Shown here: one piece after another, positions 1 to 43,002 of the stretch
How positions within the stretch are numbered: position 1 is the stretch's first letter
Layout of the letters: every line of letters begins with the position of its first letter
Source of the DNA: a virus
Direction: 5' to 3' (one strand)
IMG/VR virus record: IMGVR_UViG_3300019886_000009
Location: 1 to 43,586 of that record
Length of the DNA: 43,586 nucleotides
Notes under the pieces: generated by a model
What the model saw: only the letters and a program-made list of their open reading frames with translations
What the model was told of the DNA's origin: nothing
The model's database searches: none
Program-made: the position numbers and the translations under genes

Positions 1-153
1 TAGTCCACATAACCGAAGTCTAAGGGCTAATCAAGCTAATGCGCATAGGATTTGTCGGGAGCTCGTACACCGCCCGCTCCACCGCTCTCGCAGACGAAGA
101 CTGTATCAACTTCTTCGCCGAGACGGTGGAATCGCAGGGCGCGGTTGTGCCAG
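1..153. repeat. Terminal redundancy, left copy
   Basis: Bases 1-153 match 43434-43586 with two differences: position 20 is C here and A at 43453, and position 145 is T here and A at 43578. The match means the contig closes into a circle, as expected for assembly of a circularly permuted phage genome. The duplicated piece carries the divergent starts of the gp10-like gene and of the leftward gene ending at 43078. Confidence 0.95.
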
Positions 154-1508
154 CAAAGGCGTACGGCGGCAGCAATGCGCAGAGCGTCAAGGGCTACTTC
201 GGCACGCCGGGGTTGCTTACCTTTGCCACACTGCCAAGCAACCTGCGTGGCTCATGCGTAATCAATGGGCGCGTCTGGGCTGTTGGTGGCACGTCTCTAT
301 GCGAGGTCAACGCGGACGGTACCTTTGATGAGCGCGATACGGTTGCCAGCGATGGTAAACCGGCCTCGCTCGCCCCAAGCAGCATTGAAGTGCTCACCGT
401 TTCAGGTGGCAATGCATACTGCCTCACGGTTGCAGATGCGACCGTCGTGGACGTTACAGTCATGCTTGCCGCGCAACCTATTAAGGTCGAATATGGCGAC
501 GGCTACTTTATCGTCATCTTCAAAGATAGCAATAAATTCCAGGTATCAGCCATTCTCGATGGCACCACATGGCCGGGCTTGCAGGTTAATGAAGTTTCTG
601 TCTTCCCTGAAAATATCGTCTCCATCGTCGTCAACCATCGCGAACTATGGGTATTCGGAAACAGGCACACGCAGGTCTATCAAAACACCGGGAGCGATGA
701 GATTTACGACGTCATCCCCAGCGGGCTAATCCAGCAGGGCTGCGCGGCGACGTTCTCGCCCTGCCTGATTGACAACTCAGTATTTTGGATCGGCGAAGAC
801 GACGGCGGCGGGCGGATCGCATGGCGCTCTAATGGCTACACTCCACAGCGCATCTCCACGCATGCGGTTGAATTCGATCTGAGTACATATGCGGACATTT
901 CCGGCCTCGTGTCTTACACCTATCAGGACGAAGGCCATCTGTTCTGGGTGCTGTACATCCCCGGCTCGCAATGGTCATGGTGCTTTGACGTGGTTGAGAG
1001 CTTGTGGCACAAGCGGGCAGCATGGATCACCGAATCGGGATCGTGGGGTGCTCATCATAGCTGGAACCATGTCTATGCATTTGGCAAGCATCTGGTGGGC
1101 GACTGGGCGACCGGCAATCTTTATGAGATGAATCTGGACTTCCTCGATGATGACGGGGCAGTGCTGCGCAGCTTGCGTCGCGCTCCAACGATTGAGAATG
1201 AGATGGAGTGGATTTACCACACGATGCTCACGCTGGACTTCGAAGTCGGACTCGGACCTCAACCGCCCTTCCTTGACGGCAACGGCAATCCGAGACCGCC
1301 TCAAGCCATACTGCGTTGGAGCGATGATCGTGGCAAAACTTGGAGCAATGAGCACATCCTGGACCTTGGATTTGCAGGTGAATTCAGAAAGCGGGTCATT
1401 CAGCGCAGGCTAGGACGATCACGCTACAGGGTTTATGAGTTGGTCATCACGGACCCCATCAAGCGCGCACTCCTTGACGCCTATCTGAAGGTCGGCAATG
1501 GCGAATAA
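39..1508 (+). CDS. P22 gp10-like tail hub / packaged-DNA stabilization protein
   Basis: A 489-residue protein with the look of the phage stabilization (gp10) family. It opens with an INFF-type segment near residue 23, then a short GTPGLLTF motif near residue 55, and continues as a beta-rich protein with many Trp and Tyr. In P22, gp10 plugs the portal channel with gp4 and gp26 and carries the tail appendages. Position supports this: it follows the gp4-like gene across the contig join, with only a small protein and one leftward gene between. No clear ribosome site precedes the ATG. The start lies 28 nt from the divergent leftward start at 43443 (circular coordinates). Length is close to P22 gp10. 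The family call is by motif and synteny. Confidence 0.8.
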   Translation: MRIGFVGSSYTARSTALADEDCINFFAETVESQGAVVPAKAYGGSNAQSVKGYFGTPGLLTFATLPSNLRGSCVINGRVWAVGGTSLCEVNADGTFDERDTVASDGKPASLAPSSIEVLTVSGGNAYCLTVADATVVDVTVMLAAQPIKVEYGDGYFIVIFKDSNKFQVSAILDGTTWPGLQVNEVSVFPENIVSIVVNHRELWVFGNRHTQVYQNTGSDEIYDVIPSGLIQQGCAATFSPCLIDNSVFWIGEDDGGGRIAWRSNGYTPQRISTHAVEFDLSTYADISGLVSYTYQDEGHLFWVLYIPGSQWSWCFDVVESLWHKRAAWITESGSWGAHHSWNHVYAFGKHLVGDWATGNLYEMNLDFLDDDGAVLRSLRRAPTIENEMEWIYHTMLTLDFEVGLGPQPPFLDGNGNPRPPQAILRWSDDRGKTWSNEHILDLGFAGEFRKRVIQRRLGRSRYRVYELVITDPIKRALLDAYLKVGNGE

Positions 1509-3058: not shown

Positions 3059-4336
3059 ATGCCCCTCATAGCACTCGCAGGATTAGGATTAGCGGGAAGT
3101 ATTGGCGGGGCGCTCATCGGCTCTAGCGCTGCCGGTAGCGCAGCCGATACGCAGTCAGCGGCAGCGAACCATGCGGCCGACCTGCAATACAAGGCCTCGC
3201 AGGATGCGCTCAACTTCCAAAAGCAGCAATACGGGCAGACACAAACGAATTCGGCTCCATGGCTGCAATCCGGCGCGGGCGCTCTCGGCAATCTCGATTA
3301 TCTGCTCGGCATCACGCCACCAAGCACGCAAGGCACCATGACCGGCGGGCCTCTGACGCCTTACGGTGGCACGCAGCAGCCGGGAGGTTCCGTGAGCCCA
3401 CTCCAGCGCACCGGAGGCTCTGTGGGGCCAGTGGCGACCAATGGCGGGCCTGCCATGCCGACAGCGCGTGCGATGGGGCAACCGATGAGCGGAGCAGTCC
3501 CCAGCATCAACGGGCCTGCATCTATGGGCGGCGGGCTCAACATCCCGGCAAGGGCAACGCCTCAGCCCGCGCAGACTGGTCCCGCGCAAATTGGCGCCCC
3601 TGGCATCGGATATCCTCCTGCGATCGCAGGATCATCCAACTTCGGCGCAACCGCAGGCGGAACGGGTGGGCAACCCGCCCCCGGCGTGTCAGGCACCACT
3701 GATCTCGGATCTGTCGTCAATCCCAACAATGGCGGCTTCGGATCGCTCATGCAGGGATATGGCCAAACGTTTCAGGCGCCAACCGATATCACCATGCAGA
3801 ATGACCCCGGCTATCAGGCGCGCCTGCAACTCGGCACTGATGCGCTTCAGAAGTCGGCCGCGGCAAGGGGTTCAGTGCTCACCGGGGGCACCGCCAAGGC
3901 GCTCGACAGCTATGCGCAGGACTATGCCTCGAACGAATACGGCAACGTCTACAACCGTGCGCTGACTGGATTCCAGACCGGTTACAACCAATACAACAAT
4001 GACCAGACGAACCAATACAACCGGCTCGCGGCCCTCGCCGGTATCGGCCAGCAAACAGCTTCCCAACTCGGCAGCGCGGGGCAGGCGGCCAGCAACAACG
4101 TTTCGAGCAACCTGCTCAATACCGCGAACAACATGGGCAACTCTTACCAGAACGCAGCCGCGGCGAATGCGTCCGGCACGGTAGGCAGCGCGAATGCATG
4201 GAGCGGCGCGTTGGGTCAGAGCACAAACAACCTGCAGCAATTGATGCTGCTCGGCCAGCTCCAAGGCGGCAATCAACCTGACACGATCACCGGCAGCGGC
4301 AGCAATCAGTGGTTTGGGTACGGAGGAAATGGATAA
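3059..4336 (+). CDS. DNA transfer / ejection protein (p32-like)
   Basis: A 425-residue protein with a hydrophobic glycine-rich N-terminus (LAGLGLAGSIGGALIGSSAA), a Gly/Pro/Ala-rich low-complexity middle (residues 95-235) and a conserved-looking C-terminal half. That half carries DPGYQARLQLGTDALQKSAA, ARGSVLTGGTAKAL and YNRLAALAGIGQ. This 'DPGY, AARG, GG.AKAL' pattern is known from proteins annotated as phage DNA transfer protein p32, found in virions of podoviruses and siphoviruses and thought to be ejected with DNA. AAGGAG with a 7-nt spacer supports the start. It is first of three consecutive ejection-type genes. Confidence 0.75.
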   Translation: MPLIALAGLGLAGSIGGALIGSSAAGSAADTQSAAANHAADLQYKASQDALNFQKQQYGQTQTNSAPWLQSGAGALGNLDYLLGITPPSTQGTMTGGPLTPYGGTQQPGGSVSPLQRTGGSVGPVATNGGPAMPTARAMGQPMSGAVPSINGPASMGGGLNIPARATPQPAQTGPAQIGAPGIGYPPAIAGSSNFGATAGGTGGQPAPGVSGTTDLGSVVNPNNGGFGSLMQGYGQTFQAPTDITMQNDPGYQARLQLGTDALQKSAAARGSVLTGGTAKALDSYAQDYASNEYGNVYNRALTGFQTGYNQYNNDQTNQYNRLAALAGIGQQTASQLGSAGQAASNNVSSNLLNTANNMGNSYQNAAAANASGTVGSANAWSGALGQSTNNLQQLMLLGQLQGGNQPDTITGSGSNQWFGYGGNG

Positions 4337-5904
4337 TGGGTGCCTATCAGCTAGCAGCTTTGCACGTAAATCCTCCGCAGCAGCAGGCCGATCCTACTGA
4401 GCAATACACGCGCCTCATGGCCCTCAAGCAGCAACAGCAGGATGCGCCACTGCGTCAGCAGGCATTGCAGCAACAGGTGCAGTCGGGGCAACTCGACATT
4501 CAGTCGAAGCAGCTTGAAATGAAGGATCAGCAGGCAATGCAGGCCGCAGTTCAGCAATGGGGCAAGCCTAAAGCAGCGCCTTCGGATGGCGCACCGGCTC
4601 CCGCCGCCAGCGCTACGCCGCAAAGTGGTACTGCGTCAATGCCAAGCTATGAAGACCTTTACGATCTAGCTAAGACAAACGGGGCATCTTACAAGACGCT
4701 CCAGGGCATTCAGAAGACAATTCTCGACACAAAAGAGAAGGCCGCAGCCATAGCCAAGGATGATGCACAAACCGGTCTCGATAACGCAGGCGCGCTCATT
4801 AAAAAGAATGGAGCCATTGTCGATGCGCTCACTGGAGTCATCAATGCTCCAGACAATGAACTCGTTCCACGTCTCACTCAGACGGCGCAGCAATTACAAC
4901 AACAGGGGCTACTGGACCCTCAGCATATCCAATTGGCGCAGCAGTTGGTCCAGTCAGGCGATCCGGCAGCAATCCGGCAGCAGTTAGACTTTTACGCTAA
5001 GAGTCTCGGCGGATATAGCAAGATTCAGGAGCAGGCTAAGAAGGATTTGGAGCTTCAGCAGGAAAAGGGCAAGACTGATCCGAATGCGCCTAACTATGCG
5101 CCATCGGAGCAGGCGGTAGCGGCAGGAACGGCACCGCTAGCGGCTCAGATTAAGGCCGGAAAGGTAGCGCAGGGCGCTGCTCAGGCTGGAGCAGATGAAC
5201 GGGCGCGCCTGCCCGGAGAAATGGCCCTGGCGAAGCAAAGGCAAGCGCTTTCGCAGGGTGACCCGGCGGCCGCGGGCCACTTGTTGGTCACTGGAGAGGC
5301 TACCCTCTCAGAATTAAAGGCGCGTGGCTCGACGCCGGAGTTTATCGCTAAAACGCTATATGCAGCCAGCAAAGAAAGCAGCGGTAAGTACAATGCGCAG
5401 GCGGCAGATGCGCAGTTCGCTGTAGCCAAGTCTCCCACTCAAGTGCAGTTCTTTGGCTCTGCCAAGTCGCTCACTGATAAGGGCGGCACGCTCGACCAAC
5501 TGGCTGAAACGGCGAAGAACATCCCACAGCATCAGATGCCGATATTTAACTCGCTCGACGATTGGACAAAAGCAGCGGCGGGCAGCGGCCCATTAGCGGA
5601 ATATGCCGCCCGGGTGCTTGGTGTAGCCGATGACTACGCGAAGGTGATGGGTGGCGGAACTGGTAGCGACGCGTCCAGACTTTCGGCAGCAAACCTAATC
5701 TCCGCTAAGTTGAGCAAGGAGGGAAGAGACGGAGCCATAAGCGGCATTCGCGGCTCCGTGGGTTCGCAAATCAAGTCACGCATAGGCAAAAACCCGACAC
5801 TGCTGCGCATGTATGGCGATGATTTCCCGGACGCGGCGAGTGGTGGAAGCGCGACACCGGCTTCCTCTGATCCCTTCGCACAATTCGGCGGGAAGGCTCA
5901 CTAA
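4336..5904 (+). CDS. Probable internal virion / ejection protein
   Basis: A 522-residue protein whose ATG overlaps the previous stop (TAATG), with GGAGGA 8 nt upstream. An upstream in-frame start at 4309 is less likely because it has no ribosome site. Residues 10-75 are strikingly Gln-rich coiled coil (runs such as LKQQQQDAPLRQQALQQQ), and the rest is largely alpha-helical with Ala/Gln/Lys repeats. No enzyme motif was seen. Size, helical content and position between two other ejection-type proteins match the P22 gp7/gp20/gp16 class of proteins that exit the head before DNA. The role is inferred from context. Confidence 0.65.
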   Translation: MGAYQLAALHVNPPQQQADPTEQYTRLMALKQQQQDAPLRQQALQQQVQSGQLDIQSKQLEMKDQQAMQAAVQQWGKPKAAPSDGAPAPAASATPQSGTASMPSYEDLYDLAKTNGASYKTLQGIQKTILDTKEKAAAIAKDDAQTGLDNAGALIKKNGAIVDALTGVINAPDNELVPRLTQTAQQLQQQGLLDPQHIQLAQQLVQSGDPAAIRQQLDFYAKSLGGYSKIQEQAKKDLELQQEKGKTDPNAPNYAPSEQAVAAGTAPLAAQIKAGKVAQGAAQAGADERARLPGEMALAKQRQALSQGDPAAAGHLLVTGEATLSELKARGSTPEFIAKTLYAASKESSGKYNAQAADAQFAVAKSPTQVQFFGSAKSLTDKGGTLDQLAETAKNIPQHQMPIFNSLDDWTKAAAGSGPLAEYAARVLGVADDYAKVMGGGTGSDASRLSAANLISAKLSKEGRDGAISGIRGSVGSQIKSRIGKNPTLLRMYGDDFPDAASGGSATPASSDPFAQFGGKAH

Positions 5905-7382
5905 TGTCCACGATGATCACCATGCTTGCGCCTGACGGCAGTTCGGGCGAAATCCCGATGGACAAGGTAGATGCTGCGAAGTCATCCGGCTTCAAGGTTG
6001 CAGTGCAGATGACCTCTCCTGATGGGAAGAATGGCTATATTCCCGCTGATCGCATGCACGAAGCGGCCGCAAGTGGCTTCAAGATGGTGCCTATCAATGT
6101 CCCCGATGCGGCTAAGGCCAGCTATTGGGACGCACTCACTAACCCGGTAGGCTCTGGCGGGCGTGAGCAGGGCATCTTAGGCGGCATTACACAGGTCGGC
6201 GGGCAGGCGATCAAGGCGCTCGCTAATACTGCGGCGCATCCTATTGATTCCGTAGTCGGAGCAGCCAAATTGGCAGGGAAAGCATTCACCGGAGATGCCT
6301 ACGGCGCCGGTCAGGATATCGTTGCCCCGGTCATGCAGAAGTACCAGCAGGATAAAGCTCAGGGCGGAAATGCGCTCGCGCTCGAAAATCTTGGCGGTCA
6401 GGCAGTCGGAGCAGTTGAGGGCGGGAGAATGCTCGGTGCGGCTGGTGAGAAGGTAGCCCCGGCTGTATCTGACGCTACACAAGGCGTTGCGCAGAAGGTT
6501 CAGGCGTGGGCTCGGCCCGCATCCTCCCCTTCGGTTGTCCCCAGGACGGAAATGGCCGCGCGGAATCTCAGTGCGGCAGTATTGCCCGCGACTAAGGACT
6601 CATCCAGCTTCATTAAGGCCGCGCAACAGGAAGTGCCCAACGTCCTTGATTATGCAAAGCGCACCGGCAACCCGCTCAACACGCAGTTGGAGTTTTCAAA
6701 GGCGGCAGAAGGCCACGCACAAGAAGTACGGAATCTCTATGAAAAGGAGATTCTGGGGCCTGTCGAGACCAAGCTAGTGAAAACCACCGGAACGGGATTT
6801 GGAAGCCGGATGCAGGAAGGCCCGGATACATATGCAACCCTTGGAGATATCGATAAGCGCATCGTTGACCTGAATAAGCAACTCGATGCTCCGGCGCTCA
6901 ATTCCGACGATGCCCGACGTGCTCTCGCCAGCAAGACGGAGCTTAAGGCAGAGGCCAATGGGCTGAAAGATATCCTCCATCAGAACTTGGCAGAATCATC
7001 CGGCCTCAAGCCGGAGCAGATTGCGGATGTAAGGCAGCGCGTCGGGCGCAGTTACGAGCTTGCGAATGATACCAACGCGGCCGTGACGGCCAGGATGCAG
7101 GCGGAAGGCAAAACGGACATGGGGCCAATTCACATGTCCCAGCTTCCCAGTCGTGCTCTGGAGTTCGCTCGCGGTGGGACCGTCAATATCGCAGATCGCG
7201 CATTCCAGAGGGCGATTGCGAACTTCCCCGGCCAAGCTAGTCGGCTGCCAGAGGTAAGCCAGCCCGCACCTATCCCAGCACCAGCGAGCCTTGACAGGTT
7301 AGAACAGCTTCTATCGACCGCAAGGAAGCAACAGCAAGGGGCGAGAAATGCGCAGTTCTATCCGCCAATAAGCCAGCCTTAA
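5904..7382 (+). CDS. Ejection-type protein with duplicated PDG-SGFK module
   Basis: A 492-residue protein starting in a TAATG overlap. Residues 7-33 and 34-61 are two copies of a short module with pattern M-x2-PDG-x2-G-x-IP-x-D-x3-AA-x-SGFK. A hydrophobic Gly/Ala segment (residues 85-130) follows, then a long helical region. The C-terminus is Pro-rich then Gln-rich. In P22-like order this is the last and largest ejection protein position (gp16-like), which in P22 acts at the host membrane. The duplicated module may be a peptide-binding or membrane-facing tag, but its function is unknown to me. Confidence 0.65.
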   Translation: MSTMITMLAPDGSSGEIPMDKVDAAKSSGFKVAVQMTSPDGKNGYIPADRMHEAAASGFKMVPINVPDAAKASYWDALTNPVGSGGREQGILGGITQVGGQAIKALANTAAHPIDSVVGAAKLAGKAFTGDAYGAGQDIVAPVMQKYQQDKAQGGNALALENLGGQAVGAVEGGRMLGAAGEKVAPAVSDATQGVAQKVQAWARPASSPSVVPRTEMAARNLSAAVLPATKDSSSFIKAAQQEVPNVLDYAKRTGNPLNTQLEFSKAAEGHAQEVRNLYEKEILGPVETKLVKTTGTGFGSRMQEGPDTYATLGDIDKRIVDLNKQLDAPALNSDDARRALASKTELKAEANGLKDILHQNLAESSGLKPEQIADVRQRVGRSYELANDTNAAVTARMQAEGKTDMGPIHMSQLPSRALEFARGGTVNIADRAFQRAIANFPGQASRLPEVSQPAPIPAPASLDRLEQLLSTARKQQQGARNAQFYPPISQP

Positions 7383-7468
7383 AACTTCTTACTCGCAAGC
7401 AGAATCACGCCTTCTATCAGAATCGCGCCTACAAAGACAACGGCGATGATCTCTAGCACAAGCGCCAT
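7379..7468 (-). CDS. 29-residue single-membrane-segment microprotein
   Basis: A leftward 29-codon reading frame fills the gap between two rightward late genes. The product starts MALVLEIIAVVFVGAILIEG, is one hydrophobic helix with two Glu, and ends in ASKKF, a basic tail. Its stop overlaps the end of the preceding rightward gene by 4 nt. There is no good ribosome site, but a TAGACT -10-like box lies 8 nt before the ATG, similar to other isolated leftward genes here. It could be a moron or regulator of lysis; chance is not excluded. Confidence 0.4.
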   Translation of the reverse strand: MALVLEIIAVVFVGAILIEGVILLASKKF

Positions 7469-7476
7469 AGGCTCAA

Positions 7477-7482
7477 AGTCTA
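7477..7482 (-). promoter_or_regulatory. Putative -10 box (TAGACT) for leaderless leftward microprotein
   Basis: Read on the minus strand, TAGACT lies 8 nt before the ATG at 7468, placing the expected transcription start within two bases of the start codon. The identical hexamer precedes the leftward gene start in the left terminal copy. No convincing -35 box was seen. Confidence 0.3.
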
Positions 7483-7503
7483 GCACCCCCCAAAGGAAAG
7501 TAA

Positions 7504-10302
7504 ATGACTAAGTTTTGGCCCCTCGCCATTGTTGCGCTGTTCTCTGCCTTGGCAGGGGCGCAGAAGACACCGATAATTCAGCCGCACCAGACTTTTGTCG
7601 ACGACTCTGGAAGCCCTTGCGCGGGTTGCCTTTTGCATACCTATGCCGCAGGAACGACAACCCCTTTGGCGACTTACTCGGACCCCGCAGGCACCCCCAA
7701 CCAGAACCCAGTCGTGCTCGATACGGCAGGCGGGGCAGTCATCTGGACCGGATCGGGCGCATACAAGTTTGAACTGGACTCTGCCGCCGGAAGCCTGATC
7801 TGGACGACCGATAACGTTCCCGGGTCACTCTTTGGCGGCGGCACATTCACCGGCGCAATCACGGCACCGCAGTTCAACGGACCTCTGGCGGGCGCGGTGA
7901 CAGGCCATGCCAGCCTAGATTGCGCATTGACTGGATGCACCATGAGCGGGGCGATGGTGGGCAGCGTCACGGGCCACGCCTCGCTCGACCTGCCGCTAAC
8001 GGGTGGGACCATGACCGGCCCGCTCAATGGCATCCCCATGCAGGGATACAACACCAATGCGCGCACTCCGCTCGCCGGGTTCCTGTTCAGCCGCAATGAG
8101 GCTTTCACGCAGCAGCCCATCAATATCGTGCTTCTGGGCGACTCGCAAACCATCTGCTACAACGCGCTTACAGCCTGTGCGACGGGTCCGGCTGTGGATT
8201 TCAACCGCTGGGCTGAGCAATTGCGTATCACGCTTCAGGGCATGTATGGGAGCCACGGAACGGGCATGGTGCCGCTGGTCGTGAACGTGACTAATCTGGC
8301 GGTCAATGCACAGTATTGGTCGATCTCCGGCAGCGTGACGACCTCCACCATTCTCGGCCCGTCGCAGGCCTCATCTATCGCAACGGGCGGCTCGCTGGTG
8401 CAGATGGCAAACGCGCAAGTGGCAACGTTCCATTCAGCGGCGCAATATACGACGCCTATACCGTTTGACCACTTCAACGTCTACTGCGCCACCAACGCTT
8501 CGTCGGGCTCCATCGCCGTCAACATCGATGGAACGGGCGTAGGCACGGCCTGCGGAACCCCTACAGGCTCCCCGACCGCGCATGTGGCGACGTTCACGGC
8601 TGCAAGCGGGCTCGGCAACCATACCGTGACTCTGACCTCTACCGGCACCTCCTATCTCTATGCAGGCGAAGGCACGGCTGGCACCGCTGGCATCAGCGTG
8701 CACAACCTGGGAACGGCATCGGCTGCGGCTGAATACTTCGGCACCACCGTGGCAACGCAGCTGGCCTTCTCTGACGTGATCCCCGGATCGACGCAGCTTG
8801 CCATTCTCGACCTCGGCACCAATGACGCCAACTCGCTCTTTGGATACTCGACCACCAGCTATTCGACCGCCATGCAAGCCATCATTACGCATGAGCTAAC
8901 CGGTCTGGGCGCGTCTGTGCTCGTAGTCCAGCCACCCGTAAGCAACGTGACCAGTGGCGTCACCAACTGGCCCCTATTTACGGCAGCGCTGACCACCGTA
9001 GTCAATGCGAATGCGGTCTCCTACGTGAACCTTCAGAGCCGCTGGGGGACCACCTACAACAGCAATTACTACTGCGCTGACGGCATTCACCCCTGCGATT
9101 TCGGCTCACTCGATGAGGCATCAATGATCATCGCCAGCATTGTGGACCAGCGTCCTCCCCTTCCAATGTCGACGTCGACGCAGCAGATGAATGTGAGCGT
9201 CAATGGGGCCAACCCCGGGCCATCACCGGCGGGCACAGCAGCAGCCAATATCAGCAGCAGCGTAAGCCCCAGCATCGCGACAGCGGCTCTAAGCGTGCTT
9301 GGAGGCACTAATTACAGCCTTGCAGCCTTCGGAACCGGAACGTCGTCAGGGCTTCCGGCTACGGCGGGCTTCTATGACCCGAATACGCTGGTGTTTCCGT
9401 GGAATACCAACGTCACGGATGACATCTGTTTTGGCACCCCGCTCTCAGGTGCCAACGTTGCGGCCTGCGCGGGAACCGGCTTCCATTACCAGCCCGCGAT
9501 TCAGACACTCACGGTCAATAACCTTACCGTGGGCGGCCTTTGCACCGGATGCAGCACCGGAGCGAATGCAACCTCGATTCAGAGCACTCCCGTATCCTCC
9601 ACGCCTCCCACTACAGGGCAGATCATTGCCTTCAATGGAACCAGCTATGCGCCGGCAGCGGCGGCGGCAGGCGCTGGCAACGTCAATGCAGGCACCACTA
9701 GCCAGTTTGCCTATTATGGGGCCAATGGCACCACGGTCAGCGGCATCAATACGGTGCCATCAGGCGCTGTCGTGGGCGACACCGATACGCAGACGCTCAC
9801 AGGCAAGACGCTGACCAATGATGACGCCAATACCCAGACGGCGGGCAACAATACCACCAAGCTTGCCACCACCGCATTCGTGCAGGCTGCTGTCGTGGGC
9901 GCCACCACAGGCGTATCGAGCATCGACACCCAGACCGGCGCATTCACGTTCGCCGGTACAGGCGTCTCGCATACCGGCAATGCATACACATTCACCAGTG
10001 CGGGCAGCGTCACCGATATCTCCATCTCAATCGCATCCTTCGCGATCCCGGCTAATTCCTGCTATGGGTCATCTGGCTCAGCGACCCCAGCCACCGCAAC
10101 CATGACGGGCGTCACAACCTCGATGGCTGTTCTGCCTTCGTTCATCACCAACCCCACCGCGATCGTGGGCTGGGGCACAACGGGCGGGCTCAACCTGCTG
10201 GTATGGCCATCAGCCTCGAATACCGTGTCCTACTGCATCAACAACGCGACAAGCGGATCTATCACGGGCGGGGCTATCACGCTCAGACTGGCGGCACAAT
10301 GA
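7504..10302 (+). CDS. Tail fibre/spike with signal peptide and SGNH esterase domain
   Basis: A 932-residue protein preceded by AAAGGAAAG. Residues 1-19 form a Sec-type signal peptide (MTKFWPLAIVALFSALAGA, then Gln). Residues 25-110 resemble the N-terminal domain of podophage tail fibres (HTYAAGTTTPLATYSD, NPVVLD), but with a CAGC pair. An SGNH hydrolase domain follows: LLGDSQT near residue 212 (nucleophile Ser), GTNDAN near 437 and DGIHP near 525 (Asp/His). Such domains remove acetyl or other ester groups from surface polysaccharide. The C-terminal part (600-932) has the TKLATTAFVQAAV motif common in phage fibres and a beta-rich end. It is Cys-rich. The signal peptide is unusual for a virion protein. 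Confidence 0.85.
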   Translation: MTKFWPLAIVALFSALAGAQKTPIIQPHQTFVDDSGSPCAGCLLHTYAAGTTTPLATYSDPAGTPNQNPVVLDTAGGAVIWTGSGAYKFELDSAAGSLIWTTDNVPGSLFGGGTFTGAITAPQFNGPLAGAVTGHASLDCALTGCTMSGAMVGSVTGHASLDLPLTGGTMTGPLNGIPMQGYNTNARTPLAGFLFSRNEAFTQQPINIVLLGDSQTICYNALTACATGPAVDFNRWAEQLRITLQGMYGSHGTGMVPLVVNVTNLAVNAQYWSISGSVTTSTILGPSQASSIATGGSLVQMANAQVATFHSAAQYTTPIPFDHFNVYCATNASSGSIAVNIDGTGVGTACGTPTGSPTAHVATFTAASGLGNHTVTLTSTGTSYLYAGEGTAGTAGISVHNLGTASAAAEYFGTTVATQLAFSDVIPGSTQLAILDLGTNDANSLFGYSTTSYSTAMQAIITHELTGLGASVLVVQPPVSNVTSGVTNWPLFTAALTTVVNANAVSYVNLQSRWGTTYNSNYYCADGIHPCDFGSLDEASMIIASIVDQRPPLPMSTSTQQMNVSVNGANPGPSPAGTAAANISSSVSPSIATAALSVLGGTNYSLAAFGTGTSSGLPATAGFYDPNTLVFPWNTNVTDDICFGTPLSGANVAACAGTGFHYQPAIQTLTVNNLTVGGLCTGCSTGANATSIQSTPVSSTPPTTGQIIAFNGTSYAPAAAAAGAGNVNAGTTSQFAYYGANGTTVSGINTVPSGAVVGDTDTQTLTGKTLTNDDANTQTAGNNTTKLATTAFVQAAVVGATTGVSSIDTQTGAFTFAGTGVSHTGNAYTFTSAGSVTDISISIASFAIPANSCYGSSGSATPATATMTGVTTSMAVLPSFITNPTAIVGWGTTGGLNLLVWPSASNTVSYCINNATSGSITGGAITLRLAAQ

Positions 10303-11177
10303 GAATCCTTTGCCTGCTCCTGCTCTGCTGCGCATGGGCTCACGCGCAAATCGGCGTAGCGCATACATCGGCTAAGGCCGCCGCTCCCTGCCTCTATTCG
10401 ACCGGCAGTGACCTCGCGCTTACTAGTTGGACGCCTGACCCATGCGCAAACCCGTCGTGCGCTCCTGGGGGGACGGGCGTGCCTACAGGTGTACAGCACA
10501 CGGTGGGCAATGTTATCAGCAGCCATTCGTCCATGCTGTTCGCGGAGACGGCGCAGGTATCGGCGCAGACGAACATCCTCTGGCCCTATGTGGCGGCTCA
10601 TGCCTGCAATGGGACTAACAACTTCATCTCCCATTTCTTTGTTTACATCCCCACCAGTTGGCCGGGGAATGCGGGGTCAGGAGGCGCCGGTGCCTCGAGC
10701 TACGAGTTCGATATGTACGCATTCAACTGCGGCACGACTGCGGCAGGAGTAGCGATCCGGTGCATGTTTGGAATGCAACGCTGCCAGTCCGGGTCTGGGT
10801 GCCCATCAGGGGTGGTGGGCTGGGATATCGGCGGCAATAGCAATGTGCCATGGACCTATTCGGGCGTGAACACTGCGCTGCTCTTCGATGCATGGAATGA
10901 AATCACGGTGCAAAACCACGTCGTGCGCTCTGAGTTCACGACCATGCCCTGCTCCTATGTCTCAGGCGGCACAACGTTCACCGTGCCCTATCTCTATTAC
11001 GACTCAATCACGGTGAATGGGGTCAAGTCGAACATCAACATGAAGTTTTGCACGAATCAGAACCCTACCGGCTGGTCAAGCGTCGGCAACCAATTCCAGA
11101 TTGACATTGCCAGCCACGCCACCGCGCTCTCTGTGGGCTTTTACGTCTACGGGAACACTTACGAAATGGCTTACTAG
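10299..11177 (+). CDS. Secreted Cys-rich probable jelly-roll appendage protein
   Basis: A 292-residue protein starting in an ATGA overlap with the fibre gene; an upstream start at 10203 would lie inside that gene. Residues 1-16 are a clean signal peptide (MRILCLLLLCCAWAHA, then Gln). The mature part holds ten Cys and alternating strands: FISHFFVYIP, SSYEFDMYAF, AWNEITVQNHVV, FYVYGNTYEMAY. The pattern of long strands with Trp and Tyr resembles a concanavalin-like carbohydrate-binding or glucanase sandwich. Catalytic residues could not be assigned. It is probably a polysaccharide-binding adhesin or enzyme. Disulfides would form only outside the cytoplasm, which agrees with the leader. Confidence 0.7.
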   Translation: MRILCLLLLCCAWAHAQIGVAHTSAKAAAPCLYSTGSDLALTSWTPDPCANPSCAPGGTGVPTGVQHTVGNVISSHSSMLFAETAQVSAQTNILWPYVAAHACNGTNNFISHFFVYIPTSWPGNAGSGGAGASSYEFDMYAFNCGTTAAGVAIRCMFGMQRCQSGSGCPSGVVGWDIGGNSNVPWTYSGVNTALLFDAWNEITVQNHVVRSEFTTMPCSYVSGGTTFTVPYLYYDSITVNGVKSNINMKFCTNQNPTGWSSVGNQFQIDIASHATALSVGFYVYGNTYEMAY

Positions 11178-11184
11178 GAGATTT

Positions 11185-11889
11185 ATGTTTGCACCTATCG
11201 TAGATTCACAACTCGAACTTCTCCCTTGGCAGAAGCACCTACCCAACGATGGCTCGCAGATCGGCGGGACCATGCCGACCGCGGCGGATGTGGTGCCAGT
11301 CCCTGGCCCAACACCTGGGGTTATGGTCTTCGTAAAGGGTCCGGCTTACGCGACGGTTGAGGGCTATATTACCCGTCCCAACTTCGTGACGCGCGGCTTC
11401 CCCTATACGACATTCAATTACACCATCGTGGTCGATGACCGCACCGCTGGGCAGGCGCAAGTTATCGAAACTGACCTTATCCGCATCGTCAAGCACACCG
11501 ACGGCAGCGTTTTCAAATATGACGGCAGTTTCCAGATCAACATCATGGAAGGCTGGATGCTGCAAGTGGATGGGCCTGCGCCGACTGCGGGCGCGCCCTC
11601 GTGGAAAGACACCGGCATCATCATCCCGGCGCTGGCGCCAAACGTTCCTCACACCGTCTCCATCAAGCACTTCTCCGACACTGTGAAGCGGGTCCATTCT
11701 GTGCTGTCGGCCACCATCGACGGCGTTGTGTACCCCATCCCGGCAGCGATGCAGAACATTCCGGCGACGCCTAGCACCTGGGCACCAGATACCGACCTGC
11801 CACAAGTACAACTCACGACCAACAAGGGCGGCGGCGGATATGCCGTCATACTTTCGCCTGTTTCTCTTGCCCATTCGGTGACTGCCTAA
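11185..11889 (+). CDS. Probable beta-sandwich appendage protein, no leader
   Basis: A 234-residue protein. GGAG with a 4-nt spacer selects the ATG at 11185; an earlier in-frame ATG at 11101 lies inside the previous gene. No signal peptide and no Cys-rich character, unlike its neighbours. Strand-rich segments (TTFNYTIVVDDRT, VFKYDGSFQINIMEGWMLQV, HTVSIKHFSDTVKRVHSVLS) suggest a jelly-roll or lectin-like fold. It may be a chaperone, a carbohydrate-binding module or a structural partner of the two spikes that flank it. Family not recognised. Confidence 0.65.
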   Translation: MFAPIVDSQLELLPWQKHLPNDGSQIGGTMPTAADVVPVPGPTPGVMVFVKGPAYATVEGYITRPNFVTRGFPYTTFNYTIVVDDRTAGQAQVIETDLIRIVKHTDGSVFKYDGSFQINIMEGWMLQVDGPAPTAGAPSWKDTGIIIPALAPNVPHTVSIKHFSDTVKRVHSVLSATIDGVVYPIPAAMQNIPATPSTWAPDTDLPQVQLTTNKGGGGYAVILSPVSLAHSVTA

Positions 11890-11892
11890 ACC

Positions 11893-14800
11893 ATGAAAAA
11901 ACTGATCATTGCCGGAGTAGTAAGCCTCTCTGCGTATGCACTCGCGCAGTCGCGCTTTCCGCCCATCAATCTCTTTAACGGCGATCCGACTGGAACCGCC
12001 TGCACCGGCAACCTGATCCAGCAGAGCAGCACCACAGGGTTGCTCTATACCTGTCAGGCCAGCGTCATGAAGGTGCAAGGCAATCCGTCAAGTGGCAGTG
12101 TTATACCATCCCCGCAGTTCTCGCTCTTCTATCAGCCCAACTCCGGCACTCAAGCGGCAGCCCAAGGCGATCCCAACGTGACTACGGACGGCAGCGGCAA
12201 TGTAACTGGCAAGACGATCAAGGCTAGCGTGAACAAAATTCTCATGGTCACCGCGCCGCCCTACAATGCATACTGCGATGCCGCGACACCATCCACGCTT
12301 ACCCTCACATCGGGCAGCGCAGTCACGAGCGGCGTCACATTCACGAGCGCAGATGTGGGCAAGACATTCACCGCTGGCGGAGCCTCGAGCGGTACTACTT
12401 ACCAGATGCAGGGCGCAATTCTCTCTGTGAGCAGTGGCAATGCAACGCTCTCTTTCAATGCGCCATTGTCGGTTGCGATACCCGTAGGCCACTGGTTCTA
12501 TGGCCATGACGATCAGGCGGCAATTCAAGCCGCCTTTACCGATGCATTGATTGGCAGCAGCAACGCTCTCTGTACGATCACCGGCTGCTCGATTCAATAT
12601 CCTGCGGGGAAATGCCTATCCAGCACCATCACCTATAATGGTCAGTCCTTCTTCGGCGCAGGTATCGGCGTCACTGAGTTGGTTGGGATGCCGGGACAGG
12701 ATAATTTTCAATCGCCCGATTCTGCAATCACTATGGATAGCGCCTACATTCACGACCTTTTGATCGATATCGACACCTCAGTAAATAAGGCGGCGACCGC
12801 AGGCGGCGGTGACAACACATTCCCCAACAGGATCAGCGGCACGGCAGGCGGCACGACACCGCTAACAGTCCCGATCGCGATGGATGGATTTACGTTTGGC
12901 GCAGCCACGCCGCTCAATTGTTTCGGCTCGATGACCAGCGGTTCTGCGATCCTGACATTATGCAGCACTAGCTTTTTTACGAGCATACCGCCGTCGTTTC
13001 TTGTGGGCCAGCCGGTATCTGTATCGAACGCTGGCAGCGCAGGGGGAGGGCTCACCAGTACTGTGGCATCCGTCACCGACGTTAACCATGTCGTGCTTGC
13101 CAACACGGCATCCACAACGACAACCACCGCAACCGGATACATCGGCACACCCTCAACAGTGGTCACCAAGACGCCTTGGTACTTCGGCAATTGCGGAATC
13201 GCACTCCCTTCGAGCAGCGGAACGGCGCTTGCCGCATTCAACAATGCGACGATTAGCAATGTGCAATTTAGCCCTATCAATCGCGCCTATCCAACCGACA
13301 ACCATACTTGCGCGATGTTCATGCAGGCGAATGAATACGACAACTCTTTCGAGAACATCAAGATCGTTTCCATGTTCGGCGGGCTGATTGAAGCGCCTCC
13401 AGCCTCGAATAACTCCAGCTATTTCGCATGGACACCGGACACGAACAATTACAAGAATGTGAACTTCTACCAGAACACTATCCCGATGGTCTGGTACAAC
13501 GGCATCCACCGCACTGCGAACGGAATCAATATCTATTCGCTCGGCGCTGACTTCGGCGTGGGCTTGATGCAGATCGGCTCTCCGCTTGGAAGCAGCAATA
13601 CCAATCAGCCATCGGCCACAATCACACGCTATTACAACGAATGCAACACCTGGAATGGCGGCGAGATTGCGCGGTTCTCAGGGCGAAACACGAACATCTC
13701 GGGCGGTTCGCTCGGTCAGTGCGCCTCAAAGGGGTACATCAACTGGATGGGCAACGAGAGCACCATTAACGCGCATATTGGCCCGTCGCTGCAAGTTGCC
13801 GGATACAATAACACGTTCCTCAACTCGCATCTGGGCGCAAGTTCGGTCACCGATACCGGATGGAACAATCGCGTCTATGGCGGTCCAAGCGATGCAGTAT
13901 CAGGCAGGACAAGGGAAATCAATCGCGATCCGATCCCCGCCCTTCCACCGCTCAATGAGTTAAAGGGGGCGGCATTTGCGGCAGGTATCAGCGCGACGCC
14001 TGTCCCGAACATGGATGACCTCGTTACGACCTGCAACGACTATTACGTGGTCACGTCGGGGAGTTTCAGCGTCTCATGCGTCAACGACCCTACCGGCACG
14101 GAACTGACCAAAACATACATGGTCAAAACCGGAGCAGGCGGCTTCTTCACGCAAGGCAGCACCAACAATTATTCGCTCCTGGCCGCTGGACCGCGCTTCC
14201 CTCTGGCGCAGGTTTACGCCATCACGCAAGGCCAGCTCCCCGGCTGCGCATCAACCTGCACTGGCACGCTGGCGATTACCGACCTCACTGCGGTAACCAC
14301 GCTCAAGTCGTGCTCCGTAACCTATACCGCAGCATGGGTAATCGACGGCGGCCCAAACTCGGCCCATCCGTGCCTCGTGGACTTCTCGACTGTCACCTAT
14401 GGCGACCTGATCGGCTTCAACTGGACTAGCTTCTCAGGATCGCCCACGGAGACGCGCCTCGCATTCCTCGCCTATGAGCCCGTCAACGTGGACGTTGTGC
14501 AAGAGGTACTCACCAATACCAGCTTTGCCGTGAGCATCGCAGGGCAAATTCAGGCAACTACATCGGGAACACCCCCGCTCATCAATGCAAAGCAATGGTT
14601 GTGGACCTCGAACACTCCCGGCGTGCTGGACGCCACATCTCCGGTCGGATTCTCGACCGCGGTAACAAACGCGGGTACGGTTATCAGCGCCAACGGATCA
14701 ACGAACCTCAACGCAGGCTATGGCGGCATCGTGCAGGCGGCTCCGAGTATCGTTACCGTGGCAGCGCAGAGCCCCACAGTGGTCAGCAACACGCTCAATG

Positions 14801-15978
14801 GGTCCATCCTCTCCACGGACACTTCAATCGTGATGAACTCCGCGTCGACCTCAGCCTATCCCGCCGCTGGCTGTTTCCTCATCGATCAGGAGGTAATCTG
14901 CTATTCGGGCACGCCTACGGTTGGCACGACCACATTCTCTCCAGTAACGCGCGGCCAGTGGGGGACTACGGCGCAAGCACACTCAAACGGAGCGGCTTCT
15001 CCGCTGGTTCCGATTGGGCGGCTGAATGTTATCTGTAACAGCATCACGCTCGGCAACGCTCAAATTATCTTCACGAATAATTGGACCTACTACAGCGCTT
15101 TCGTTCCGATGCAATACTGCTCGGGATATCCTGTCACGTTCCAGATAGGTTCGCTGACGAATGTCCCGACTGCGCAGATTACAAAAGTCGCTTCAATCTC
15201 AGTTGCTCAGGTTGGCGGAAACAATTCCGCAGCATCTCAGCTAGTGGCTACTCCTACGGCTGCAAACCAGATCCCCGTCTCTGCACAGATAGGAGCAGGG
15301 CCATTCAGCTACAACACGAATACGACTATGGCTGCGTTGCTTGCTTCCCCGCCCGCCATCGGGGGAACCGCACCCGCGGCTGTGGCGGCTACGACCGTGA
15401 CTGCAAGCGGAGTTTCGACATTCATATCCGCCAGCACGAACGAGCGCGTCACGGTAGGAGCTCCATCGGCAAGCCTTGCGGAGTATCGCATCCAGGCTGG
15501 GGGGACCGACCTATGGAGTTATAGAAACACGGCAAGTAGCACTAACGGGTGCCCTGTATTCGACATGGTTGGCAACAAGTGCCTCTTCCTTGTGCCTAGC
15601 AATACCATGCCCGCAAGCTCTTACGGCGGCGGGGCAAATGGCGCAATCCTCGGTGGCACTTCCACGCAGATTCTTGGCACGCTGACGGTTGGGGCGACCA
15701 AGTTCACCACTTCCGGCTGCTCCATCTCCGCGACTGCGGGCAACGGCACGGCAGGAACCTTCACGCTCGGGGCCAATACTTGCACGGCAATCGTGACCCT
15801 AAACGGCGCAACCGGCATGACGGCAGCGACTGGATGGACGTGCCAAGCGCATGACCGCACCGCGCCTACAGTGCTGATCGGTGGGGAATCATCGAGCACG
15901 ACAACGACGGCATCGTTCACGATCCCGGCCGGCGCGGGCGCTACGGATGTAATTAGTTTCGACTGTAGAGCGTTTTAA
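11893..15978 (+). CDS. Giant tail spike with signal peptide and beta-helix (pectate lyase-like) region
   Basis: A 1361-residue protein. Residues 1-18 form a signal peptide (MKKLIIAGVVSLSAYALA, then Gln). Around residues 120-330 is a pectate-lyase-3-type beginning: NAYCDAAT, later HDDQAAIQAAFTDA, IQYPAGKCLSSTITY, then SFFGAGIGVTEL. This leads into a long right-handed beta-helix, the fold of P22 gp9 and other polysaccharide-degrading spikes. The middle and C-terminal parts are Ser/Thr/Ala/Gly-rich repeats; the end (SFTIPAGAGATDVISFDCRAF is 21 residues, so only its start SFTIPAGAG is quoted) is a beta-rich tip. The ATG follows the previous stop by 3 nt without a ribosome site. The role is receptor recognition or depolymerisation, by fold only. 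Confidence 0.75.
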   Translation: MKKLIIAGVVSLSAYALAQSRFPPINLFNGDPTGTACTGNLIQQSSTTGLLYTCQASVMKVQGNPSSGSVIPSPQFSLFYQPNSGTQAAAQGDPNVTTDGSGNVTGKTIKASVNKILMVTAPPYNAYCDAATPSTLTLTSGSAVTSGVTFTSADVGKTFTAGGASSGTTYQMQGAILSVSSGNATLSFNAPLSVAIPVGHWFYGHDDQAAIQAAFTDALIGSSNALCTITGCSIQYPAGKCLSSTITYNGQSFFGAGIGVTELVGMPGQDNFQSPDSAITMDSAYIHDLLIDIDTSVNKAATAGGGDNTFPNRISGTAGGTTPLTVPIAMDGFTFGAATPLNCFGSMTSGSAILTLCSTSFFTSIPPSFLVGQPVSVSNAGSAGGGLTSTVASVTDVNHVVLANTASTTTTTATGYIGTPSTVVTKTPWYFGNCGIALPSSSGTALAAFNNATISNVQFSPINRAYPTDNHTCAMFMQANEYDNSFENIKIVSMFGGLIEAPPASNNSSYFAWTPDTNNYKNVNFYQNTIPMVWYNGIHRTANGINIYSLGADFGVGLMQIGSPLGSSNTNQPSATITRYYNECNTWNGGEIARFSGRNTNISGGSLGQCASKGYINWMGNESTINAHIGPSLQVAGYNNTFLNSHLGASSVTDTGWNNRVYGGPSDAVSGRTREINRDPIPALPPLNELKGAAFAAGISATPVPNMDDLVTTCNDYYVVTSGSFSVSCVNDPTGTELTKTYMVKTGAGGFFTQGSTNNYSLLAAGPRFPLAQVYAITQGQLPGCASTCTGTLAITDLTAVTTLKSCSVTYTAAWVIDGGPNSAHPCLVDFSTVTYGDLIGFNWTSFSGSPTETRLAFLAYEPVNVDVVQEVLTNTSFAVSIAGQIQATTSGTPPLINAKQWLWTSNTPGVLDATSPVGFSTAVTNAGTVISANGSTNLNAGYGGIVQAAPSIVTVAAQSPTVVSNTLNGSILSTDTSIVMNSASTSAYPAAGCFLIDQEVICYSGTPTVGTTTFSPVTRGQWGTTAQAHSNGAASPLVPIGRLNVICNSITLGNAQIIFTNNWTYYSAFVPMQYCSGYPVTFQIGSLTNVPTAQITKVASISVAQVGGNNSAASQLVATPTAANQIPVSAQIGAGPFSYNTNTTMAALLASPPAIGGTAPAAVAATTVTASGVSTFISASTNERVTVGAPSASLAEYRIQAGGTDLWSYRNTASSTNGCPVFDMVGNKCLFLVPSNTMPASSYGGGANGAILGGTSTQILGTLTVGATKFTTSGCSISATAGNGTAGTFTLGANTCTAIVTLNGATGMTAATGWTCQAHDRTAPTVLIGGESSSTTTTASFTIPAGAGATDVISFDCRAF

Positions 15979-17042: not shown

Positions 17043-17237
17043 ATGAGATGGATTATGACCGCATTTCTCGCATGGCTTAAGTCCAAAAACGTCACCTCGC
17101 ACTCAATCGCCCTAGGCGCTTTTGCTCTAGCAGGGCTAATCACGAAGGATGCGCAGGTTATCGAAGCCACGCCAGATCCGCCACCCCCAACGCAGGCCGC
17201 TGTCGATGCGGCGAAACCCTCGAAGGAGACGCCTTGA
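17043..17237 (+). CDS. Small membrane protein (holin candidate)
   Basis: A 64-residue protein with one hydrophobic stretch (SIALGAFALAGLI, residues 21-33) and a Pro-rich polar C-terminus (PDPPPPTQ). The ATG abuts the T-run of the leader terminator, so the second in-frame ATG at 17055 may be the real start. It is the first gene after promoter P16919 and overlaps the following lipoprotein gene. It could be a holin or spanin partner; the evidence is only topology and place. Confidence 0.5.
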   Translation: MRWIMTAFLAWLKSKNVTSHSIALGAFALAGLITKDAQVIEATPDPPPPTQAAVDAAKPSKETP

Positions 17238-17722
17238 AGCTTAAAGTTCTTGCACTCGTCACCGCACTTTGCATCAGTATCGGCACAATCGGATGCACTA
17301 ATCAGGCCGCCATCTCCGCACTCGTCACCACCCTCGGCAATGCAACCGCTGCCGTCGCCACCATCGAAGGTGCAACGGATCTTGCAGCCAAGCTCAAGGT
17401 TGACACCGCTGCCGCCTCTGCTGCCGTGCTGGCGTGGAAGTCAGGCACTCCAGCGCAGAATATTGTGCAGGCGCTCGATATCGTGGAAGCTGACTTGAAC
17501 CTGTTCCCGGTTGGCGGCAAGTATGAAGCGCTCATCGTGCTGGCCATCGGTACGGCTCAGAGCATCATCGAGATTGTGAACCCCGGCGCGGTGCCTGTAA
17601 CGGCCAAGGTGAGCGCGTCTCGGCAGATTAGGCTCAGCACCCCTCCGAAGAATGCCGCGCAGCTTAAGAAGCAGTGGAACGCGATTGCGGTGGGCTCGCT
17701 GGCGGATGCAAGGATCAACTGA
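17234..17722 (+). CDS. Probable lipoprotein of the late lysis unit
   Basis: A 162-residue protein that starts with TTG in a TTGA overlap, with GAAGGAG 5 nt upstream. The N-terminus MKLKVLALVTALCISIGTIGC is longer than quoted rules allow, so note only its ending SIGTIGC followed by TNQ: a lipobox-like site with Cys21. The mature part is Ala-rich and helical with LAAKLKVDTAAASAAV and a basic C-terminal end. It would sit in the inner or outer membrane facing the periplasm. Possible lysis accessory factor; no family recognised. Confidence 0.55.
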   Translation: MKLKVLALVTALCISIGTIGCTNQAAISALVTTLGNATAAVATIEGATDLAAKLKVDTAAASAAVLAWKSGTPAQNIVQALDIVEADLNLFPVGGKYEALIVLAIGTAQSIIEIVNPGAVPVTAKVSASRQIRLSTPPKNAAQLKKQWNAIAVGSLADARIN

Positions 17723-21498: not shown

Positions 21499-22164
21499 CT
21501 AGCCTATTTCAAACCAGGGCGTGAACGAAACCATCCAGTAATGCTGGTAGCAGGCTTTCCCGTAGAACCATAGTGGGCCAATTACATCGACCTCCATCTG
21601 GCAGAACGTCCCCGGATCAGGCGTACTCCATGGATTGGGCGACGTGAGGTTAGCGATTGGATGGCTTGAACTTAACCCGCTTGGCGTCGTAACAATCGTG
21701 ATGGTTCCGCCTGTGACGGCCCGCTTCCAGCCCTGACCACCGCCGCCCCTGCCGCCAGTGCTAAGCGTGTACTCGTAGGCAAAACTGATTTTTATCAAAC
21801 CGTTGTAGCCTGACCCATGGAACGAAGCGGCGATGGACGTAACTTCGGACGCGGTGCGGCCCAGGCTCGTGACCATGGTTCTGGTGTCGATCTCATTGTC
21901 GATATATGCCTGACCCAAGGTGCTCAGGCTGCCCCCGAAGTAAACCCATTGCGCGAGCGGCCTCGGGTCCAGCGTGTGAATCTGAAAATATGCGGTTGCC
22001 TGCGTATCGCCTTGCAGCGTGACCGGGATAACGATACAGGACAGCGGGGTAAGGCCGGGACCGCAGGCGCGGGTGCCAATGGTGGCGGTGATTATGTCTT
22101 GTGAGTGCGCGGCGGTGGCGGTGAGGGCCAGGGCCAGACTTAACAACACGATGCGGGGTTTCAT
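21499..22164 (-). CDS. Exported hypothetical protein
   Basis: A 221-residue protein with a signal peptide (MKPRIVLLSLALALTATAAHS, ending before Gln; only MKPRIVLLSLALAL should be taken as its core). The mature part is beta-rich (ATAYFQIHTLDPRPLAQWVY, FHGSGYNGLIKISFAYEY), has a glycine-rich loop (GGRGGGGQG) and four Cys. AAAGGA precedes the ATG. It lies in the early operon, so it could be made during lysogeny or early infection and act in the periplasm or outer membrane, for example in superinfection exclusion. That role is speculation. Confidence 0.7.
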   Translation of the reverse strand: MKPRIVLLSLALALTATAAHSQDIITATIGTRACGPGLTPLSCIVIPVTLQGDTQATAYFQIHTLDPRPLAQWVYFGGSLSTLGQAYIDNEIDTRTMVTSLGRTASEVTSIAASFHGSGYNGLIKISFAYEYTLSTGGRGGGGQGWKRAVTGGTITIVTTPSGLSSSHPIANLTSPNPWSTPDPGTFCQMEVDVIGPLWFYGKACYQHYWMVSFTPWFEIG

Positions 22165-31737: not shown

Positions 31738-31863
31738 AACGAACGTACCTCCGCGCAAGTTACCTAGGTGGTATGAAGTGAACTCCAAGGGCTTGTGCGA
31801 GGACGATTAAAATAAGTGTACCCGGGCTTGAGGATGTGCCTGAAGCCTCGTTGTGGAACATAG

Positions 31864-32204: not shown

Positions 32205-32347
32205 CCAAGAAAATCAGCGCAGCCTCTAAATTCGGTCGCAAGGGCGGCAAGGCGAGGGCGAAGGCGCTCACCAAGGCACAGCGAGTCGAGATTGCGCGTA
32301 AGGCTGGGATCGCGGGGGCGAAGAAGAGATGGGGGAAGAAATGCTAA
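32201..32347 (+). CDS. 48-residue basic DNA-binding-like protein
   Basis: Starts in ATGA overlap. About one third Lys/Arg, with FGRKGGKARAKALT and EIARKAGIAGAKKRWGKK, a repeated 'GGKARA.AL...R.EIA.KAG..RW' form known from tiny phage and plasmid proteins. Probably binds nucleic acid. Confidence 0.65.
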   Translation: MTKKISAASKFGRKGGKARAKALTKAQRVEIARKAGIAGAKKRWGKKC

Positions 32348-32517
32348 ATTGTGCCGATACCGAAGGCAAAGTCGTCGTTCTTTATAGGGAGTTGATCCGC
32401 GAAAGGGAAATGCTCGCACTCCGGATTTGGGAGATTGATAGAGCTATAGAGGCGATGAGGGTATTCATACGCGAACAGCCGGAGATTCAGACGGAGCCAA
32501 AAGAAGCGGAGGGGTGA
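32341..32517 (+). CDS. 58-residue coiled-coil protein
   Basis: Helical protein (REREMLALRIWEIDRAIEAM) with an acidic end. GGGGGAAG before the ATG at 32341 favours it over the in-frame ATG at 32329. Overlaps the preceding gene by 7 nt. Function unknown. Confidence 0.55.
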   Translation: MLNCADTEGKVVVLYRELIREREMLALRIWEIDRAIEAMRVFIREQPEIQTEPKEAEG

Positions 32518-32520
32518 ACA

Positions 32521-32601
32521 GTGAGATACGTTATCAGGGTGGTTGATGGCAAAAGCGCGGATGCTAGCCAGCAAACGCCCCCGGTTGCCCCGCCCGCATA
32601 A
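32521..32601 (+). CDS. 26-residue peptide
   Basis: GTG start with GGAGGGG upstream; product MRYVIRVVDGKSADASQQTP plus PPVAPPA. It ends 6 nt before the late promoter at 32608. Short, but the ribosome site is strong. Confidence 0.4.
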   Translation: MRYVIRVVDGKSADASQQTPPVAPPA

Positions 32602-32607
32602 ATTATT

Positions 32608-32635: not shown

Positions 32636-32741
32636 CTGCGTCGTTAGCTCCTCGGTAGTGCTTTACCTGATGCCGGACACAGGATAACGTCGGGCGCCAA
32701 TTAAGGCCCTGCCCTTGGAGTCTCTAAAACCCCAATAAACC

Positions 32742-41984: not shown

Positions 41985-42139
41985 CCAGCGAGCAGATCAG
42001 GAAAATGGAGCCGATGGGACTCAGCGAGCGGGAATGGCTAAAGCAGATCTGCCTGCAACTTGCGCTGCTCAATGAGAGCTGCCCCGTCGCGTCCAACATG
42101 CAACTGCCTTATCAAAGCCGTAGCAAAAAGGTTAACTGA
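41981..42139 (+). CDS. 52-residue hypothetical protein
   Basis: ATGA overlap with the glycosyltransferase gene and TGATG overlap with the gp4-like gene; GAGG upstream. Helical, with LSEREWLKQICLQLALLNES. Function unknown, but the tight coupling supports it. Confidence 0.6.
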   Translation: MTSEQIRKMEPMGLSEREWLKQICLQLALLNESCPVASNMQLPYQSRSKKVN

Positions 42140-43002
42140 TGGCGCAGGGACTCATAGGAACAGACGCTCTCGGCAATCAATACTCGATACTCATCGTGCC
42201 CGACGTCAATGGTCCGACATTGTCGGTTACAGCGGTCCACAACGTCACGCCTTCGAACCCTGACGGCTCGATCACGCAGAAGGCCCTGGCGCTGATTGCA
42301 AGCTCTCTCAGGATCATCAAAGTACTGGCATCCGGCGAACCGGTCCCCATCGAGGAAGCTAACGATTCCCTGATGGTGCTGAATCAGATGCTGGACGCGT
42401 GGAACGCCGACCGGCTGGCGATTTACACCACGAACACTGCCGACTTCGCGCTCGTGTCAGGTCAGCAGGCTTACACGCTCGGCATTGGTGGCGATTTCAA
42501 CACCACATGGCCTGCGCGCATCGACAGCATGAGCGCCATCTTGCTGAACAACCCCACCAACCCGATCGAAGTGCCTATGGATATGTATTCGGTGGAGGAT
42601 TGGCAGACCAAGTTGCCGGTGAAGAACGTTCCCGGCTCATTCCCGCTGATTTGCTACGATGACGGCGGGTTTCCGCTCAGAACGCTAAGCATGTGGCCTA
42701 TTCCGCAAGGGCAGGCCGTCAACGTTCGCGTCTATAGCTGGCAGGGTCTGGGGATGCCGGCCAACCTGCAGGCCAACATGAACTTCCCGCCCGGCTATGC
42801 GGAGGCGTTTCGCTACAACTTAGCCCTGCGACTGAACGGCGAATTTGATGGAAAAATGAGTCAGGCCGACATGGCGATCGCAGTTGAGTCACTGGCGCGC
42901 ATCAAGTCAATGAATGCGCCCTCGCTCGAGCTCAGGTCTGATTATTGCCCATCTTCGGATGGGTCCAGATATCGCGCCGAAATGTTTGGGTTGGGCTACT
43001 AA
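42139..43002 (+). CDS. P22 gp4-like tail accessory factor
   Basis: A 287-residue protein. The central segment is diagnostic of gp4-type head-tail joining proteins: LMVLNQMLDAWNADRLAIYT, then FALVSGQQAYTLGIGGDFNT and WPARIDSMS. The N-terminal 75 residues are an extension. P22 gp4 extends the portal, seals packaged DNA and has muramidase activity in some relatives; no catalytic Glu is assigned here. Position before the gp10-like gene agrees. Confidence 0.85.
   Translation: MAQGLIGTDALGNQYSILIVPDVNGPTLSVTAVHNVTPSNPDGSITQKALALIASSLRIIKVLASGEPVPIEEANDSLMVLNQMLDAWNADRLAIYTTNTADFALVSGQQAYTLGIGGDFNTTWPARIDSMSAILLNNPTNPIEVPMDMYSVEDWQTKLPVKNVPGSFPLICYDDGGFPLRTLSMWPIPQGQAVNVRVYSWQGLGMPANLQANMNFPPGYAEAFRYNLALRLNGEFDGKMSQADMAIAVESLARIKSMNAPSLELRSDYCPSSDGSRYRAEMFGLGY

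Follow-up and report, generated by a model that had tools for sequence, protein, structure and literature searches.

Tailspikes of the P22 type are carried in the virion as six trimers on the tail hub, and they are a standard model of how proteins fold and assemble in the cytoplasm. The virus record analyzed here (the window, 43,586 bases in its entirety) raises the question of why consecutive tail-appendage genes of a P22-like phage should begin with apparent Sec signal peptides, and in which compartment their products would fold before reaching the virion.

Appendage genes in a P22-like gene set

The window contained P22-like genes for the terminase, portal, scaffold, major head protein, head closure/tail hub, and a DNA-ejection protein, in agreement with the podovirus proposed in the initial annotation; because an integrase gene was also present, the phage is probably temperate. 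The appendage region consisted of four genes following the ejection genes (Table 1). Three of them had the reading frames, start codons, and leaders that the annotation had claimed; the remaining gene encoded no leader, so at least one product of the cluster is not predicted to be exported. The three leaders displayed the features of predicted Sec/signal-peptidase-I substrates, namely a basic n-region, a hydrophobic core, and an AxA-type cleavage site. The tailspike leader MTKFWPLAIVALFSALAGA (start ATG 7504, with AAAGGAAAGTAA just ahead) was followed by QKTP, the second leader MRILCLLLLCCAWAHA (ATG 10299, overlapping the preceding stop) by QIGV, and the third, MKKLIIAGVVSLSAYALA (start ATG 11893), by QSRF.

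Table 1 Positions of the appendage genes, their parts, and related phage genes in the window
Feature	Position	Strand	Details
gp10-like head closure/tail hub	39..1508	+	presumed docking partner
Three ejection-region genes	3059..7382	+	no Cys; immediately upstream of the appendage genes
Leadered tailspike gene, whole	7504..10302	+	932 aa precursor; mature protein with 16 Cys
Tailspike Sec leader	7504..7560	+	MTKFWPLAIVALFSALAGA; predicted cut before Gln20
Mature N-terminal head-binding domain (HBD)	7561..7833	+	P22 tailspike type
CAGC Cys pair of the HBD	7618..7629	+	residues 39/42; coupled to the leader across relatives
GDSL/SGNH-esterase-like region	8137..9093	+	motifs GDSQ, LGTND, DGIHP
Leadered protein, fold unassigned	10299..11177	+	292 aa; MRILCLLLLCCAWAHA then Q; ten Cys in the mature part
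Leaderless neighbor	11185..11889	+	234 aa; no Cys
Leadered protein	11893..15978	+	1361 aa; MKKLIIAGVVSLSAYALA then Q; 28 Cys in the mature part
Phage integrase	30685-31788	-	
gp4-like adaptor	42139..43002	+	part of the presumed docking site

The N-terminal domain of the tailspike had been read as the normal virion-binding type with a CAGC pair, and both points held. Residues ~24 to 110 matched 34 phage records in a tblastn search, and a profile of 15 leadered relatives matched the head-binding domain of the Pam1 tailspike (7eeq, E 2.4e-11) as well as the Pan3 tail spike (9vyg). The structure model of the mature HBD (pLDDT 91) matched the tailspike domains of Pan3, Pam1, P22, and Sf6 with Z values of 7.8-11.3 in the VIA table, in which the next other row reached 6.6; on the basis of this model, the protein is predicted to carry a P22-type HBD fold at its N-terminus. 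Further downstream, a PF13472 match (E 3.9e-6, 27.9 bits) fell below the curated cut-off of 32.9; together with the motifs listed in Table 1, this GDSL-like match makes the protein a candidate esterase.

The ten cysteines reported for the 292-residue neighbor were all counted in its mature part, and three more were located in its leader. In the 1361-aa protein, the segments DDQAAIQAA and YPAGKC resembled, as judged by eye, the start of a β-helix tailspike, and searches of Pfam families and PDB sequences returned no match for it. The model of P0002 alone had a pLDDT of 32, too low to use, and no whole-length relatives of P0001, P0002, or P0003 were confirmed among the viral contigs.

Leaders and the cysteine pair among relatives

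Leaders were called with a home-made rule combining hydropathy and a cleavage site, together with comparative evidence. Among ORFs of at least 350 aa, 26/80 scored as leadered in contigs with a leadered tailspike, compared to 1/305 in contigs with a leaderless one; as the same rule was applied to both, the leaders in the window exceed what chance would give. One contig with a leaderless tailspike (L113) nevertheless contained a 415-aa ORF that scores as leadered.

Relatives were searched with a DNA pattern for C.GC...TY.AGT, which describes the cysteine pair of the HBD (CxGC) and does not include the leader. This pattern retrieved 18 further viral contigs, and in 18/18 a leader lay directly ahead of the HBD (two of them start with GTG), so that, with the window included, 19/19 CxGC forms were leadered. 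The control pattern, representing the Cys-less form of the HBD, matched at least 120 contigs; among the approximately 120 matches listed, the proteins started near the HBD with no leader, with one exception (L089). This sequence, also designated G019, has a leadered HBD with no CxGC pair and is the exception to the coupling. Variant forms were also found: L172, L176, and L177 have an altered pair plus another cysteine and are leadered, and L171 and L173 have a single cysteine and are leaderless.

The tailspikes P22 gp9, Sf6 gp14, Pam1, and Pan3 resemble the window tailspike in HBD fold, P22-like gene set, and location of the spike gene near the ejection genes. In contrast to the window protein, Pam1, Pan3, and all 14 other annotated-phage homologues that were fetched start at the mature region, with leaders in 0/16 and CxGC pairs in 0/16. 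In the members checked, leaderless synthesis is thus a trait of the known P22-type assembly route and not of the fold, and the window tailspike departs from it. Similarly, the esterase tailspikes of Pseudoalteromonas phage H6/1 (gp20) and Vibrio phage 1.211 combine an HBD with a GDSL/SGNH annotation in one spike, as in the window, but they are leaderless. The initial annotation had asked for the same leaders in metagenomic P22-like phages, and the CxGC contigs supplied them. It had also named leaderless homologues starting at the mature region as evidence against its reading; this description applies to the annotated-phage homologues and to nearly all Cys-less contigs, but it fails for all 18 CxGC contigs.

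Outside the viral contigs, the cysteine-pair pattern hit 11 stretches in the genome contigs, with at best weak, accidental domain scores. Searches of bacterial genomes, centered on Pseudomonadota, gave 13 HBD-like matches, several of them weak, with neither the cysteine pair nor an evident leader.

In the hub tree, four changes of leader state were needed, three of them forced by supported branches, and the cysteine pair never went the opposite way to the leader state. The MCP and portal trees forced only one change and did not require more than one origin; the contigs thus cannot count as independent of one another, and the comparison of leader and cysteine pair (19 versus 122 contigs) is descriptive only, its Fisher p-value being an overstatement.

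Cysteine numbers, cleavage sites, and virion genes

The initial annotation had suggested that disulfides form outside the cytoplasm. Cysteine parity was examined in 20 leadered records, taking ORFs of 250 aa or longer whose mature proteins have any cysteine. An even number was found in 36/42 leader-scoring mature proteins (p=2.8e-6) and in 92/182 proteins with no scored leader (p=0.94), and the two groups contained 1.74 and 0.94 cysteines per 100 aa, respectively. The window proteins had mature counts of 16, 10, and 28, against 0 in the leaderless neighbor. Because leadered proteins favor even cysteine numbers, the suggestion of disulfides gained support. Taken together, the sequence data strongly indicate export and directly support a Sec route with disulfide formation. 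The scaffold and ejection-region proteins of the window contained no cysteine, and the ejection-region proteins were also Cys-free in G001, G007, G009, and G018. A 1429-aa ORF with 44 cysteines and no scored leader lies amid the leadered genes of G018 (3391-7680, minus strand).

Cleavage sites were placed by hand in 23 leaders; alanine occupied position -1 in 21/23 and glutamine position +1 in 16/23. The predicted mature N-terminus lay a median of 14 residues ahead of the HBD, which equals the distance from the initial methionine to the HBD in leaderless relatives; predicted cleavage would therefore restore the N-terminus of the leaderless proteins.

Homologues of the portal, coat, gp4, gp10, and ejection proteins were common to leadered and leaderless contigs. 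Each of the 19 leadered records searched contained one full HBD; because many of these records are fragments, the lack of a second copy is not proof of its absence. Besides its full copy, G016 has a weak partial HBD match at 33844-34005. In the longer leadered records, two to five further leadered appendage genes accompanied the tailspike: the total was three each in G001, G009, and G018, G003 had four behind the ejection genes plus another two ahead of the portal, and G007 had six if the record is circular. Two of the accompanying proteins had Ig-like or CE2-like matches, and most had none.

Proposed export with late docking and its alternatives

We consider it probable that a P22-like podovirus, itself probably temperate, makes the receptor-binding appendages encoded at this locus as Sec precursors, which fold with disulfides in the periplasm and dock at lysis on hubs made in the cytoplasm. 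Late in infection, the appendage chains would cross the inner membrane unfolded via Sec, signal peptidase I would remove the leader, and the mature proteins would fold with disulfides in the periplasm. Meanwhile, heads with the gp4/gp10-like tail hub would be assembled in the cytoplasm. Lysis would mix the compartments, allowing the mature HBD, which would keep the N-terminus and fold of its leaderless relatives, to dock on the hub and complete the virion. What the sequences themselves show is the leaders with their cleavage-site motif, the link between leader and cysteine pair, even cysteine numbers, the HBD fold, and a single full HBD per record; from these features we infer that the proteins are actually exported, cleaved, and disulfide-bonded, and that they dock at lysis or later. 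Docking on the hub is suggested because the HBD is retained, single-copy, and encoded in the tailspike position. In P22, heads that are already complete can still receive their tailspikes. Docking at lysis would have to work against dilution.

The main rival also assumes export of the leadered proteins but has them work away from the virion, on the surface of the host or in the surrounding medium, for example in receptor masking, superinfection blocking, or polysaccharide modification. Leaders and even cysteine numbers show only export, an esterase-like domain would suit the modification of surface polysaccharide, and the integrase makes expression in lysogens conceivable. We nevertheless regard this reading as unlikely: the domain that docks on the virion has been conserved along with the hub genes, the leadered genes occupy the usual tailspike position, and the leadered HBD is the only full copy per record, so a virion lacking it would have no recognisable tailspike. 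Export followed by later addition and action on the host surface, the two possibilities raised at the outset, both stay leading candidates, and the conserved single-copy docking domain appears to favor export with late docking.

It is improbable that the leader stays uncleaved, whether to anchor the protein in the membrane or on the hub or to extend the N-terminus of a virion protein as a structural element; cleavage is so far predicted from sequence, but the strong preference for alanine at -1 and glutamine at +1, the restored leaderless N-terminus, and even cysteine numbers pointing to an oxidizing compartment all speak against retention. There is little to recommend a scheme with two products, a long form for export and a short one that begins at an internal start, stays in the cytoplasm, and enters virions: several relatives do have a GTG, TTG, or ATG after the cleavage site and ahead of the HBD, but no such codon was present in the window tailspike gene or in eight others examined, and the cysteine pair would have no obvious use in the cytoplasmic form. 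Equally remote is a role of the CxGC pair in metal binding or trimer packing, for which three pairs could cluster in a spike expected to be trimeric, but the even cysteine numbers span whole leadered proteins and not the HBD alone.

On balance, we slightly favor two-compartment virion assembly in one tailed-phage lineage, with cytoplasmic heads and hubs, receptor-binding appendages folded and oxidized in the periplasm, and virions finished at lysis. In the portion of the open-access PMC literature covered, neither a leader on a tailed-phage spike or fiber nor an exported-tailspike route for tailed phages was found described, and the nearest exported relatives there are bacterial. The MAT fibers of Bdellovibrio have a signal peptide and then form trimers resembling phage fibers (PMC10769870), but they are bacterial proteins encoded outside any phage structural operon. 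Pantoea WceF (PMC7949094) is an exported bacterial exopolysaccharide enzyme with a tailspike-like fold and a Tat leader; it weakly matched the HBD model. Leader-bearing endolysins of the Lys44 and SAR types are phage late proteins using the host Sec system (PMC6116005), but they are lysis enzymes and not appendages. That phage DGR proteins lack signal peptides has been taken as support for the phage origin of these receptor-binding proteins (PMC6199706). If entire sets of tailspikes are exported, virion assembly would span two compartments, disulfides would be available to the receptor-binding proteins of phages, and annotation rules crediting leadered spikes to the host would overlook them. 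The proposal predicts mature Gln N-termini in virions and spikes in the periplasm.

Several further observations were made in the window. A GT2 glycosyltransferase gene at 40647-41285 lies between those for the major head protein and the tail adaptor. An early-region protein of 221 aa (21499-22164, minus strand), with no match in Pfam or PHROGs, has a clear leader, MKPRIVLLSLALALTATA, followed by AHSQ. The product of 17234-17722 begins with a leader containing a lipobox-like cysteine (IGTIGC), and lipoprotein-like leaders were likewise present in G003 (1832-2290), G007 (32241-32696), and G018 (995-1387).
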